Assembly (NCBI RefSeq): GCF_032391395.1
Contig: NZ_CP135916.1
Location: 1,240,001 to 1,304,000 of the forward strand
Source: Sphingomonas sp. Y38-1Y
GTDB taxonomy: Bacteria; Pseudomonadota; Alphaproteobacteria; Sphingomonadales; Sphingomonadaceae
Direction: 5' to 3'
DNA length: 64,000 nt
Shown here: positions 14,795-17,249 of the stretch, piece by piece
Position numbering within the stretch: position 1 is the stretch's first letter
How the letters are laid out: the number at the start of each line of letters is the position of its first letter
The notes under the pieces: model-generated
Databases searched by the model: none
Told to the model about the DNA's origin: nothing
What the model saw: the letters and a program-made list of their open reading frames with translations, nothing else
Made by a program: the position numbers and the translations under genes

Positions 14795-14868
14795 CCACCG
14801 TTCGTGCTGAGCCTGTCGAAGCGCGTGTCCCGGAACACGTCCTTCGAAAAGCTCAGGACGAACGGTGG
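14795..14868. repeat. Inverted intergenic repeat (family C)
   Basis: Arms beginning CCACCGTTCGTGCTGAGC and ending GCTCAGGACGAACGGTGG form a long stem between convergent genes. The right arm contributes the last codons of the HAD gene, whose stop is at 14853. The element is related to the one at 399-480. Confidence 0.85.
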
Positions 14869-15524
14869 TGTGTGTTCGAGAGTAAAAGCCGCACCACGGC
14901 GTCCGGCGTGTCAAACCCGTAATCCGGCGCGAGCTCGTCCAGCGCCGCGCGGTGCGCATAGCCCCAATGCACCGCGCCCGAGCGGATGCCGCATCGCCGC
15001 GCCGCTTCGATATCGCGGGTCTCGTCGCCGATCGCCAGCACCTCGCTTGCGCGCACGCCGGCCGCGCGCAGCACGCGGCGGAAGCGCGGCGCCTTGCCAT
15101 AGAGCGAGGAGGCGCATTCCCAGATCGCGATCCGCCGCGCATTCTCCTCGCCCAGGATGCGACGCGCATTGATCTCCGCGTTGGAAGTGACGAGCGCGAG
15201 CCGGACGCCCGCCTGGTCGAGCGTCGCCAGCATCTCGGTCACGCCGTCGAACAGCTGCACCTCGTGCGTGTGGAGCGCGAACAGGCTGCGGACATAACGG
15301 GCGATGAAGGGGAGCTTCCAGGCGGGGATGCGCAGGCGGCGGATCACCTCGCGCGTCGGCAGCGCGCGCAGTCGCTCGACCTCGCCCGCTTCGACCATGC
15401 GGAAGCGATAGCGCTGGGCGAGATGGTCGACGATGCCGAGGAACCAGTGCCCGCTGTCCGAAAGCGTCCCGTCGAAATCGAAGATGACCAGACGGATGGG
15501 CGGATCGAGCGGCGGCACACGCAA
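14853..15524 (-). CDS. HAD-family phosphatase (phosphoglycolate-phosphatase-like)
   Basis: A 223-residue haloacid-dehalogenase superfamily hydrolase. Motif I FDFDGTLSDSG holds the nucleophilic Asp, motif II is the TSNAE region, and motif IV is IGDETRDIEAA, with a helical cap between I and II. The substrate is not determined by sequence; phosphoglycolate phosphatases are the nearest class. The last codons (THHRSS) are supplied by the intergenic repeat. The start at 15524 is the first ATG before IRLVIFDFD. Confidence 0.9.
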   Translation of the reverse strand: MRVPPLDPPIRLVIFDFDGTLSDSGHWFLGIVDHLAQRYRFRMVEAGEVERLRALPTREVIRRLRIPAWKLPFIARYVRSLFALHTHEVQLFDGVTEMLATLDQAGVRLALVTSNAEINARRILGEENARRIAIWECASSLYGKAPRFRRVLRAAGVRASEVLAIGDETRDIEAARRCGIRSGAVHWGYAHRAALDELAPDYGFDTPDAVVRLLLSNTHHRSS

Positions 15525-15694
15525 AGAGTGGCGGAGGGGCGGCGGCGTTGCAACCCGCCCGGCGCAGGCCGGAAATTTGAGGATCGTAAAAACGAAGCGC
15601 GATTACAAGACTTGTTCTGCACGCCCGCATGACTCATGTATCACCCGTGGCCTGGAGCCACGCTCGTTCTTCAACAGCGAAAGGAGGTGATCCG

Positions 15695-15751
15695 ATGTCT
15701 CATGGTTCAGCAGTGAGGTCGGTTCAGTTCGTTCGGGAGACGCGCCGCTAA
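15695..15751 (+). CDS. 18-residue leader peptide with extended Shine-Dalgarno
   Basis: The short frame MSHGSAVRSVQFVRETRR is preceded by AAAGGAGGTGATCC (15680-15693), a 14-nt perfect complement to the 3' end of 16S rRNA, with 7 nt between GGAGG and ATG. A match of that length argues strongly that the ORF is translated. The peptide is basic and has no signal or membrane segment. Its 3' codons include GGGAGAC, which can base-pair with a downstream element, so ribosome position could steer RNA folding. I know of no function for the peptide. Confidence 0.65.
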   Translation: MSHGSAVRSVQFVRETRR

Positions 15752-15861
15752 ACGCACGGCGTGAAGGCGGGGGATAATCTTCCCCAATCAACGCCTTCGT
15801 TCGCCAAGCGCGCGGCCCGCATGGTCTCCCGCGTCGGAACGTCCGGCCGCTGACCATGTCG

Positions 15862-15909
15862 GAGGCTGTCGGGCCCTTGGGAAAGGGCTCGGCAGCCTCT
15901 TTCATTTTT
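15862..15909 (+). terminator. Rho-independent terminator upstream of FMN reductase
   Basis: GAGGCTG...GGCCC (from 15862) pairs with GGGCTCGGCAGCCTC (to 15899) across a short loop, and is followed by TTTCATTTTT (15900-15909). It is the clearest intrinsic terminator in the window. It ends only 11 nt before the reductase ATG at 15921, so reductase transcription either reads through it or starts inside it. Confidence 0.85.
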
Positions 15910-15920
15910 GAGGAAGATCG

Positions 15921-16508
15921 ATGGCGCGACTGCTCGTCCTCTATGGCTCTTATCGGCGCGACCGGATGGGCATCCGGCTTGCCGACTATCTCGTCGCCGG
16001 CCTTGCCGCGCGCGGGCATGATGTCGAGCTGATCGACGCCAAGGCGGTGGGACTGCCGATGCTCGACCGGATGTACAAGGAATATCCGGCGGGCGAGGCG
16101 CCGGCCGCGATGCAGGCGCTGGCCGACAAGATCGTCGCCGCCGACGGCTTCGTGTTCGTCACCGGCGAGTATAATTGGGGCATGCAGCCGGGGCTCAAGA
16201 ACCTGACCGACCATTTCCTCGAGCAATGGTATTGGCGGCCGGCAGCGATCGCCAGCTACTCGGCAGGCCGACTGGGCGGCGCGCGGTCGGCGACCGCGTG
16301 GCACGGGACGCTGTCCGAGATGGGCATGGTCGTCACCTCGACTACGATCGGCGTCGGCCAGATCGGCGGCGCGCTGGATGCCGATGCGCAGCCGACCGGC
16401 GATGGCGGCGCGGCGCTGGACCGCAACTTTCCCCGCTTCGCCGCCGACCTCGAATGGTGGGTCGAGGCGGCGATGGCGCAGCGTGAACGGAAAGCGCCGC
16501 CCTACTGA
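15921..16508 (+). CDS. NAD(P)H-dependent FMN reductase family protein
   Basis: A 195-residue flavodoxin-like oxidoreductase. LVLYGSYRRDRMGIRLADYL is the FMN phosphate loop and the VTGEYNWGMQPGLKNLTDHF segment is the GEYN(W) active-site signature of NADPH:FMN/azo/chromate reductases. Expected cytosolic role: reduction of FMN or quinones, often linked to oxidative stress. Its start follows GAGGAAG immediately after the terminator at 15862-15909, suggesting control by attenuation. The 3' end runs directly into a repeat element. Confidence 0.9.
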   Translation: MARLLVLYGSYRRDRMGIRLADYLVAGLAARGHDVELIDAKAVGLPMLDRMYKEYPAGEAPAAMQALADKIVAADGFVFVTGEYNWGMQPGLKNLTDHFLEQWYWRPAAIASYSAGRLGGARSATAWHGTLSEMGMVVTSTTIGVGQIGGALDADAQPTGDGGAALDRNFPRFAADLEWWVEAAMAQRERKAPPY

Positions 16509-17099: not shown

Positions 17100-17249
17100 C
17101 GTCACCCCGGACTTGTTCCGGGGTCCACCGCGCCGCGCAGGCGTTGGTTCGTTGTCTGTGAGCGGCGGCCACCTCCTGAAAGTCTGAACCATCTTCTCAG
17201 ATGGATGCGCACGTGGGCCGGTGGACCCCGGAACAAGTCCGGGGTGACG
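17100..17249. repeat. Family A element with perfect 29-bp inverted termini
   Basis: Left arm 17100-17128 and right arm 17221-17249 are perfect reverse complements, and identical to the termini of the GIY-YIG-bearing element at 56309-56713. The 92-nt interior has no ORF that I would support. It lies between convergent genes and ends just before the ggt stop. Confidence 0.9.

Follow-up and report, generated by a model that had tools for sequence, protein, structure and literature searches.

Does the short open reading frame (ORF) ahead of the FMN reductase gene in this 64,000-nt stretch of Sphingomonas sp. Y38-1Y DNA (the window) belong to a leader of that gene, or to an RNA in its own right? 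The original prediction was an attenuator-like leader, in which a ribosome moving or stalling on an 18-codon peptide chooses between stems and so decides read-through into the reductase. Several of its building blocks were confirmed by coordinate checks: the 18-codon ORF (15695-15751) behind an anti-16S site, the 14-nt match at this site (AAAGGAGGTGATCC, 15680-15693; a single exact occurrence in the window), which in fact extends to 15 nt with G15679, and the terminator 11 nt ahead of the reductase ATG at 15921. With moderate confidence, we read the locus as an independent small RNA gene, with a likely promoter and a terminator of its own, whose transcript is translated, is related to CC2171, and has a fold that would depend on ribosome engagement; the RNA is probably ribosome-responsive and not a dedicated switch for a neighbouring enzyme gene. 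Sequence comparison showed conservation of the 15-nt ribosome site, the length and stop of the ORF, two helices (P1, which closes the structure, and P2), and the terminator (Table 1).

Table 1. Features of the RNA locus and the adjoining reductase gene, in window coordinates.
Feature	Position	Strand	Details and basis
Likely promoter	15612..15640	+	-35 TTGTTC 15612-15617, 17-nt spacer, -10 CATGTA 15635-15640; inferred from sequence
Likely transcription start	~15647	+	inferred
5' hairpin CGTGGC/GCCACG near transcript start	15646..15662	+	predicted stem
Super-Shine-Dalgarno	15679..15693	+	15 nt complementary to 16S rRNA 3' end
H0' 5' strand CCGAT, overlapping start codon	15692..15696	+	can pair with 15718-15722
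18-codon ORF, MSHGSAVRSVQFVRETRR-stop	15695..15751	+	ATG at 15695, TAA ending at 15751
P1a 5' strand CATGGTTCAGC, ORF codons 3-6	15701..15711	+	99.7% of cells paired
P1b 5' strand GGTCGG, nucleotides common to H0'	15717..15722	+	97.1% of cells paired
H0' 3' strand GTCGG, ORF codons 8-10	15718..15722	+	partner of 15692-15696
P2 5' strand, last ORF codons	15735..15748	+	86.1% of cells paired; contains GGGAGAC 15735-15741
Extra hairpin in P2 loop (GGCGGGGG...CCCC-AATCAA-CGCC), genus level	15763..15798	+	consensus fold of 30 genus sequences
P2 3' strand, contains GTCTCCC 15824-15830	15812..15830	+	alignment, consensus fold
Hairpin P3, alternative to P1b	15835..15845	+	82.1% of cells paired, wider alignment
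P1b 3' strand CCGGCC, nucleotides common to hairpin P3	15843..15848	+	alignment
P1a 3' strand GCTGACCATG, directly before terminator	15849..15858	+	alignments, covariation
Intrinsic terminator, 18-bp stem (15861-15900) and U-rich tail to 15909	15861..15909	+	terminator prediction
FMN reductase gene, PF03358	15921..16508	+	Pfam E 7.1e-29; clade-specific neighbour

The region 15640-15910 has a predicted folding energy of -136.3 kcal/mol (z -5.7), which beat 200 of 200 shuffles. A block CAAGNCTTG...TGANTCA, resembling the promoter of the window, precedes the RNA in many relatives (seen in listings, uncounted); a scan of the region with an E. coli-type model called no promoter. The 5' hairpin varies in both arms among genus relatives (from a listing, uncounted) and is absent in some other sphingomonads, and terminator-like hairpins with T-rich tails were also seen among 40 relatives (uncounted). 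The motif ATCACC (15640-15645), which had been proposed to hide the ribosome site, overlaps the last base of the likely -10 element and lies before the likely transcription start at about 15647, and it is thus probably outside the RNA. Of 161 sphingomonad-type loci, just two, one of them that of the window, have it in the 60 nt preceding the ribosome site.

The proposed control of the reductase gene was not borne out by the gene neighbourhood in relatives. A downstream gene was predicted at 257 of 270 unique loci, and these genes, picked approximately by codon-position G+C, formed 139 clusters; the FMN reductase cluster lay downstream at 3 of the 257 sites. Direct tblastn searches found the reductase at 3 of 157 sphingomonad-type sites. 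Within the genus, 30 loci from a set of 41 genomes were examined, and the reductase followed the RNA in six of them, five times directly and once several hundred bases on. The nearest predicted downstream gene was encoded on the strand of the RNA at 139 of 257 sites, about the number expected for random orientation. A same-strand lipoprotein-like gene preceded the RNA at 128 of the 146 sphingomonad-type sites with enough sequence, and a divergent TlyA-like gene (one example with S4 and FtsJ domains) lay within reach at 77 of the 146; four Azospirillum-type loci were left out of these neighbour counts as well as of the ORF-stop counts below. The lipoprotein-like gene has about 170-180 codons and a CR/CRG-like end (e.g., L060:2753-3295 and L132:5489-6016, both on the minus strand), and a Pfam scan of two examples returned no match. 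In the window neither the lipoprotein-like nor the TlyA-like gene was found; a HAD hydrolase gene is there instead. With the reductase ATG just 11 nt past the terminator tail, some reductase mRNA in the clade of the window would probably arise by read-through. The reductase is probably a read-through passenger here, the effect may be confined to this clade, and under the reading that we favour it would be a side effect.

The ORF is kept in its extent, which we assessed after removal of identical sequences (as was done for the cross-order comparison of P1a arms and for the mimic counts below). A frame-0 stop falls within codons 16-22 in 157 of 157 sphingomonad-type sequences, and the first stops of the other two frames are scattered. 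In 133 of the 157 the stop is at codon 19 (TAA 81, TGA 42, TAG 10), although much of this count reflects column make-up, since independent shuffling of the codon-19 columns still gives an expected 111 (maximum 118). In 82 wider-family sequences with a TGTCTCAT[TCA] start, the ORF is 18-27 codons long in 80, compared with 11 and 14 for the other frames. Loci without the exact start pattern (16 of 128) were set aside unless caught by a looser one. The encoded peptides share the start MSHG(S/P), several codons among 7-18 change their amino acid freely, and in the wider family the listed peptides have little in common past the start. Mean entropy in the sphingomonad-type sequences was 0.58 bits at third codon positions, vs 0.76 and 0.82 bits at first and second positions; since third positions vary least, the amino acids are not what is kept. 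Our reading is that selection acts on how far translation runs and not on the peptide sequence itself. Of the conservation looked for among sphingomonads, that of ORF length and the covariation of P2 were found, but not conservation of the peptide. In four loci of Azospirillum and similar bacteria (L171, L198, L211, L257), the ORF behind the same ribosome site and a ATGTCTCATGGA start is longer (56-59 codons), and its product would begin like a signal peptide and contain a cysteine; it looks as though a small secreted protein had taken over the start module.

In addition, P1a, P1b, and P2 all draw their 5' strands from this ORF, whose stop lies in or beside the apical loop of P2. For the helices we used an alignment (A1) that began with 151 unique sequences carrying a CTGACCATG arm, was thinned to 90 and then to 68 sequences hand-picked without a rule, and stops before the terminator; all comparative tests ignore shared ancestry. 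In these 68 sequences, P1a, P1b, and P2 together had 92.6% of their cells paired (27-45% in slid versions) and 200 two-sided changes, vs a shuffled mean of 67.9 and 40-62 when slid, the tested structure having been read off the same sequences, which gives it an advantage over the slid versions. In P2, 14 of 14 pairs showed two-sided changes and 86.1% of cells were paired, with the upper pairs weakest. The predicted pairing of GGGAGAC (15735-15741) with GTCTCCC (15824-15830) is therefore upheld, as both strands are present and the helix that contains them covaries. P1a is invariant in sphingomonads, so covariation there is uninformative, and P1b shows one-sided changes only. Across orders, the arms of P1a differ together (CATTGTC/GACAATG, CATCGC/GCGATG, CATTGC/GCAATG, CATAGT/ACTATG). 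Among 49 unusual P1 arms, 13 had their own full complement beside the terminator, compared with a mean of 3.0 and a maximum of 8 in 500 permutations. The full complement of P1 was found near the terminator at 138 of the 241 sites with a called terminator; none was called at 29 of 270.

The competing stem CATGGTC/GACCATG (15820-15826/15852-15858) had been part of the proposed switch. Both strands are present in the window, but the family-wide partner of GACCATG is CATGGTTCAGC within the ORF (15701-15711). Nearly all genus loci (29 of 30) have the competing CATGGTC copy, compared with 3 of the 68 sequences of the wider alignment, so that it may have a role at the level of the genus. The suggested GCGGCC/GGCCGC pseudoknot is not supported by the relatives: one of the 68 wider sequences has GCGGCC followed by GGCCGC, and among the 30 genus loci GCGGCC occurs in six. 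When 30 genus sequences were folded together with the terminator, the consensus kept the terminator stem separate, and that single fold shows no alternative. The genus-level hairpin at 15763-15798 has a TAT-like loop and an AATCAA bulge; in 30 genus sequences its inner pairs are 90-100% paired with several pair types, its outer pairs 70-77%, and it could be a protein-binding site.

To place the RNA phylogenetically, we searched 149 genomes of the family (Sphingomonadaceae in the wide sense, judging from the named relatives) at the DNA level and obtained a match in 135 at E<=0.01, the genome of the window included, 121 of them at E<=1.7e-12 and 14 weak. In the genus, the element is present in 39 of 41 genomes and in 35 of 35 high-quality ones. 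Rfam family RF01867 ("CC2171") matched the window RNA over its full length with 25.0 bits (E 0.0014), below the gathering cut-off of 75 bits. Full-length matches were also obtained in eight of nine sphingomonad loci of our choice (34.6-54.1 bits, E 1.2e-8 to 7.5e-4); the search of locus L304 gave no match, and none of the chosen loci reaches 75 bits. The original prediction had recognized no described leader family, which holds for leaders as far as searched, but the RNA does have this relative. By its sequence, the window RNA is a divergent homologue of RF01867 CC2171 below the Rfam cut-off. Common to both are the 5' block CAAC..GAAAGGAGGTGATCC..TGTCTCAT with its 16S-complementary stretch, a long-range closing helix that joins the CAT of codon 3 to sequence just ahead of the terminator, a hairpin ahead of the 3' strand of this helix, and an intrinsic terminator directly after it. 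The window differs by its ATG start, the CATGGTTCAGC/GCTGACCATG closing helix, a different P2, and the genus-specific hairpin.

In a class-level sample, RF01867 matched 45 of 190 genomes at E<=0.01, seven of them above the cut-off. The exact pattern of the start region was present in 31 of 398 phylum genomes (by our count, 135 in the class and 263 outside), and all matches were within the class. Carriers among the matches listed include Sphingomonas, Novosphingobium, Erythrobacter, Bosea, Methylobacterium, Microvirga, Brevundimonas, Roseococcus, and Azospirillum. Some sphingomonads have a second copy with a ATGTCTCATTGTC start (L290, G091:C1:805104-805255; L128 in G011; L129 in G144), a type nearer to CC2171, with 68.9 bits in the same-genus genome G091. 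A search of the genome of the window with RF01867 at E<=1 revealed no second paralogue: the matches at 2179528 and 2187331 resemble terminator hairpins, and the one at 300768 is antisense to 16S. The start block of the wider family was also seen on six large plasmid records (H1-H6: Methylobacterium, Azospirillum, Skermanella) with no gene listed there, so that the RNA resides on secondary replicons, too.

What could a ribosome do on such an RNA? The 15-nt site (15679-15693) matches the antisense of the 3' end of the genome's own 16S rRNA (locus L303), and an exact search of the 3.58-Mb genome for its 12-mer AAGGAGGTGATC gave two occurrences, this one and one antisense to 16S. The super-Shine-Dalgarno is nearly invariant in the 68 sequences of A1, partly by selection of rows, since members were found via a pattern that includes part of the site. 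Beyond this site, a start-region helix (H0) involves the ORF itself. In GTG-start relatives, the surroundings of the start codon are complementary to a stretch about 28-46 nt past the start (GATCCAG/CTGGATC, GATCCGG/CCGGATC(ACC), GATCCTG/CAGGATC, GATCTCG/CGAGGTC or CGGGATC), and one of these stretches, CTGGATC, has the very sequence of the 16S tail. Seven-base matches of this mimic helix, with G-U allowed, were present in 41 of 80 GTG-start sequences (within-group permuted mean 26.6, maximum 34; 2000 permutations), and in 14 of the 23 with a site other than GATCCAG, compared with 3.3 (maximum 9) after permutation. Over all 107 wider-family sequences there were 41 matches vs 20.3 permuted (control region: 2 vs 2.2); this permutation mixes ATG and GTG starts, and the one within start types is preferred. 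At least seven consecutive 16S-tail bases occur in the ORF stretch of 18 of 81 sequences, vs 1.5% of shuffles. At the tested offset, the mimic helix was found in 0 of 27 ATG-start wider-family sequences, and the window has an ATG start. The sphingomonad counterpart CCGAT/GTCGG (H0') consists of five nearly invariant pairs, H0 covariation being limited to the GTG-start relatives. Comparison thus shows the 16S mimic for the GTG-start branch, and for the window we conjecture it. The Rfam structure line of RF01867 contains no helix between the start region and the 16S-like stretch of the ORF.

H0 and P1 cross, so that a folding program without pseudoknots must treat them as competitors; in the RNA itself, the two helices may either exclude each other or coexist as a pseudoknot around the start codon. 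When the ribosome site was blocked in silico, in folding without pseudoknots, the probability of P1a in the window rose from 0.07 to 0.93. The same block raised the average P1a probability of 149 sphingomonad-type loci from 0.44 to 0.85 and that of P1 in 75 wider-family RNAs from 0.54 to 0.74, and the mimic helix exceeded 0.5 in just 12 of the latter.

From these observations we propose that the RNA would act as a minimal mRNA translated by ribosomes, with selection on the extent of translation and not on the peptide. Without a ribosome, the helices, joined in the GTG branch by the mimic, would occlude the ribosome site; a docked 30S subunit would favour P1, and a translating ribosome would strip the helices. 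This would make the RNA responsive to the availability of ribosomes or to the rate of initiation, and a change of state would alter its own stability or its base-pairing in trans. Of the stem choice by the ribosome in the original prediction, the kept ORF length and stop and the covarying GGGAGAC/GTCTCCC helix stand, while the choice of helix would be set by ribosome position. In a more specific form, which we hold to be unlikely, the RNA would be a gauge: the 15-nt Shine-Dalgarno would choose between the real 16S tail and its ORF-coded imitation, and the supply of free 30S subunits would set a fold whose state acts in trans. The imitation is clear in the GTG-start branch, and a shorter pairing would take its place in sphingomonads.

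These features have to be weighed against other accounts of the RNA. One is a trans-acting sRNA without a coding role: its loops would pair with target mRNAs, and the Shine-Dalgarno and ORF would be a by-product or serve ribosome loading. This would agree with the listing of RF01867 as an sRNA in Rfam, with the unrelated neighbours and the terminator of the RNA, and with an ORF that varies least at third codon positions, in an RNA-like rather than protein-like manner. A by-product ORF, however, could scarcely be expected to retain its length in 157 of 157 and 80 of 82 sequences while using all three stop codons, when the other frames reach only 11 and 14 of 82 (the column-shuffle caveat applies here); we rate this account as unlikely. 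The kept ORF length and stop would also be unnecessary for a ribosome decoy or sponge, in which the 15-nt site holds 30S subunits via the 16S tail and lowers initiation elsewhere. Perfect complementarity over 15 nt, nearly invariant in A1, and a 12-nt core found elsewhere in the genome only antisense to 16S would suit such a role; yet a single gene would have to produce its RNA in extreme abundance to titrate ribosomes, and we consider the decoy very improbable.

Conversely, a gene for a functional 18-residue peptide would explain the conserved ORF length together with the MSHG(S/P) start, but first and second codon positions are the most variable, amino acids change freely at several of codons 7-18, and wider-family peptides are alike in little but their start; we give this explanation almost no credence. 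Leader-peptide attenuation of read-through into the FMN reductase draws on the genus: the 11 nt between terminator tail and ATG leave little room for a separate promoter, the reductase is directly behind the RNA in 5 of 30 loci, and the competing CATGGTC copy is present in 29 of 30. Against this, the downstream cluster contains no reductase at 254 of 257 sites, even though ORF, helices, and terminator persist; ATCACC, present upstream at 2 of 161 loci, is probably not part of the RNA; and the GACCATG partner is within the ORF in most relatives. We consider attenuation highly improbable as the function of the RNA. The reading as a translated small RNA corrects the natural mistake of taking it for the leader of whichever gene adjoins.

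Extended pairing with the 16S tail is also known from Staphylococcus aureus, a member of another phylum. Extended Shine-Dalgarno sites with small ORFs in that species pair likewise with the 16S tail, and no intramolecular mimic of the tail is described in the available excerpts (PMC13009471). In Sinorhizobium, rnTrpL/peTrpL is an attenuator-derived, translated small RNA with a short ORF that also acts in trans, according to the part of the source at hand (PMC10117765); by comparison, the sphingomonad RNA lacks a conserved downstream gene or peptide and has a super-Shine-Dalgarno where rnTrpL has a leaderless start.

The Caulobacter CC2171 sRNA was reportedly first described by Landt et al. in 2008. 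Caulobacter CCNA_R0051 is possibly the same RNA, a guess from the correspondence of the locus-number series. According to the excerpts available, CCNA_R0051 has 209 nt and its own promoter, and lies between CCNA_02253 and CCNA_02254 (PMC6237742, PMC5988900); it was 4.4-fold up with mitomycin C (PMC6237742) and is labelled G1 (PMC5988900), and these excerpts mention no ORF (PMC6237742, PMC5988900). Two earlier predicted ncRNAs were found to be translated by Schrader et al. in 2014, the excerpt giving no names (PMC4117421). In Mesorhizobium huakuii, MH_s33 is assigned to RF01867 in a table, and we take its second coordinate set, of 215 nt, to be the RNA-seq transcript; Northern blots in the same source, as excerpted, concern nine novel sRNAs (PMC5596092). 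The Rfam 15 paper, in the part available, reports one more covarying pair for RF01867 (PMC11701678), and the available parts of PMC3927594, PMC5082802, and PMC12559287 contain nothing on this RNA. In the open-licence literature on RF01867/CC2171, only the Rfam 15 paper and the Mesorhizobium table were relevant, and searches of that literature, partly general ones, returned no report of a kept ORF length without a kept peptide, of an ORF as source of helix 5' strands, or of a 16S mimic.

RF01867 is already known as a listed, unexplained family, and what is new are the structure and ORF features of its divergent relative. The RNA belongs to most sampled sphingomonad genomes and to several orders of Alphaproteobacteria, with just "sRNA" as its Rfam label; an ORF kept for being translated, together with a mimic of the mRNA-binding tail of the ribosome in one branch, would offer a direct, testable idea of its action. 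Elsewhere in the window, long palindromic intergenic repeats were observed at 14795-14872 (CCACCGTTCGTGCTGAGCCTGTCGAAG...) and 17105-17245 (GTCACCCCGGACTTGTTCCGGGG...). Repeats of this type are dispersed across sphingomonad genomes.
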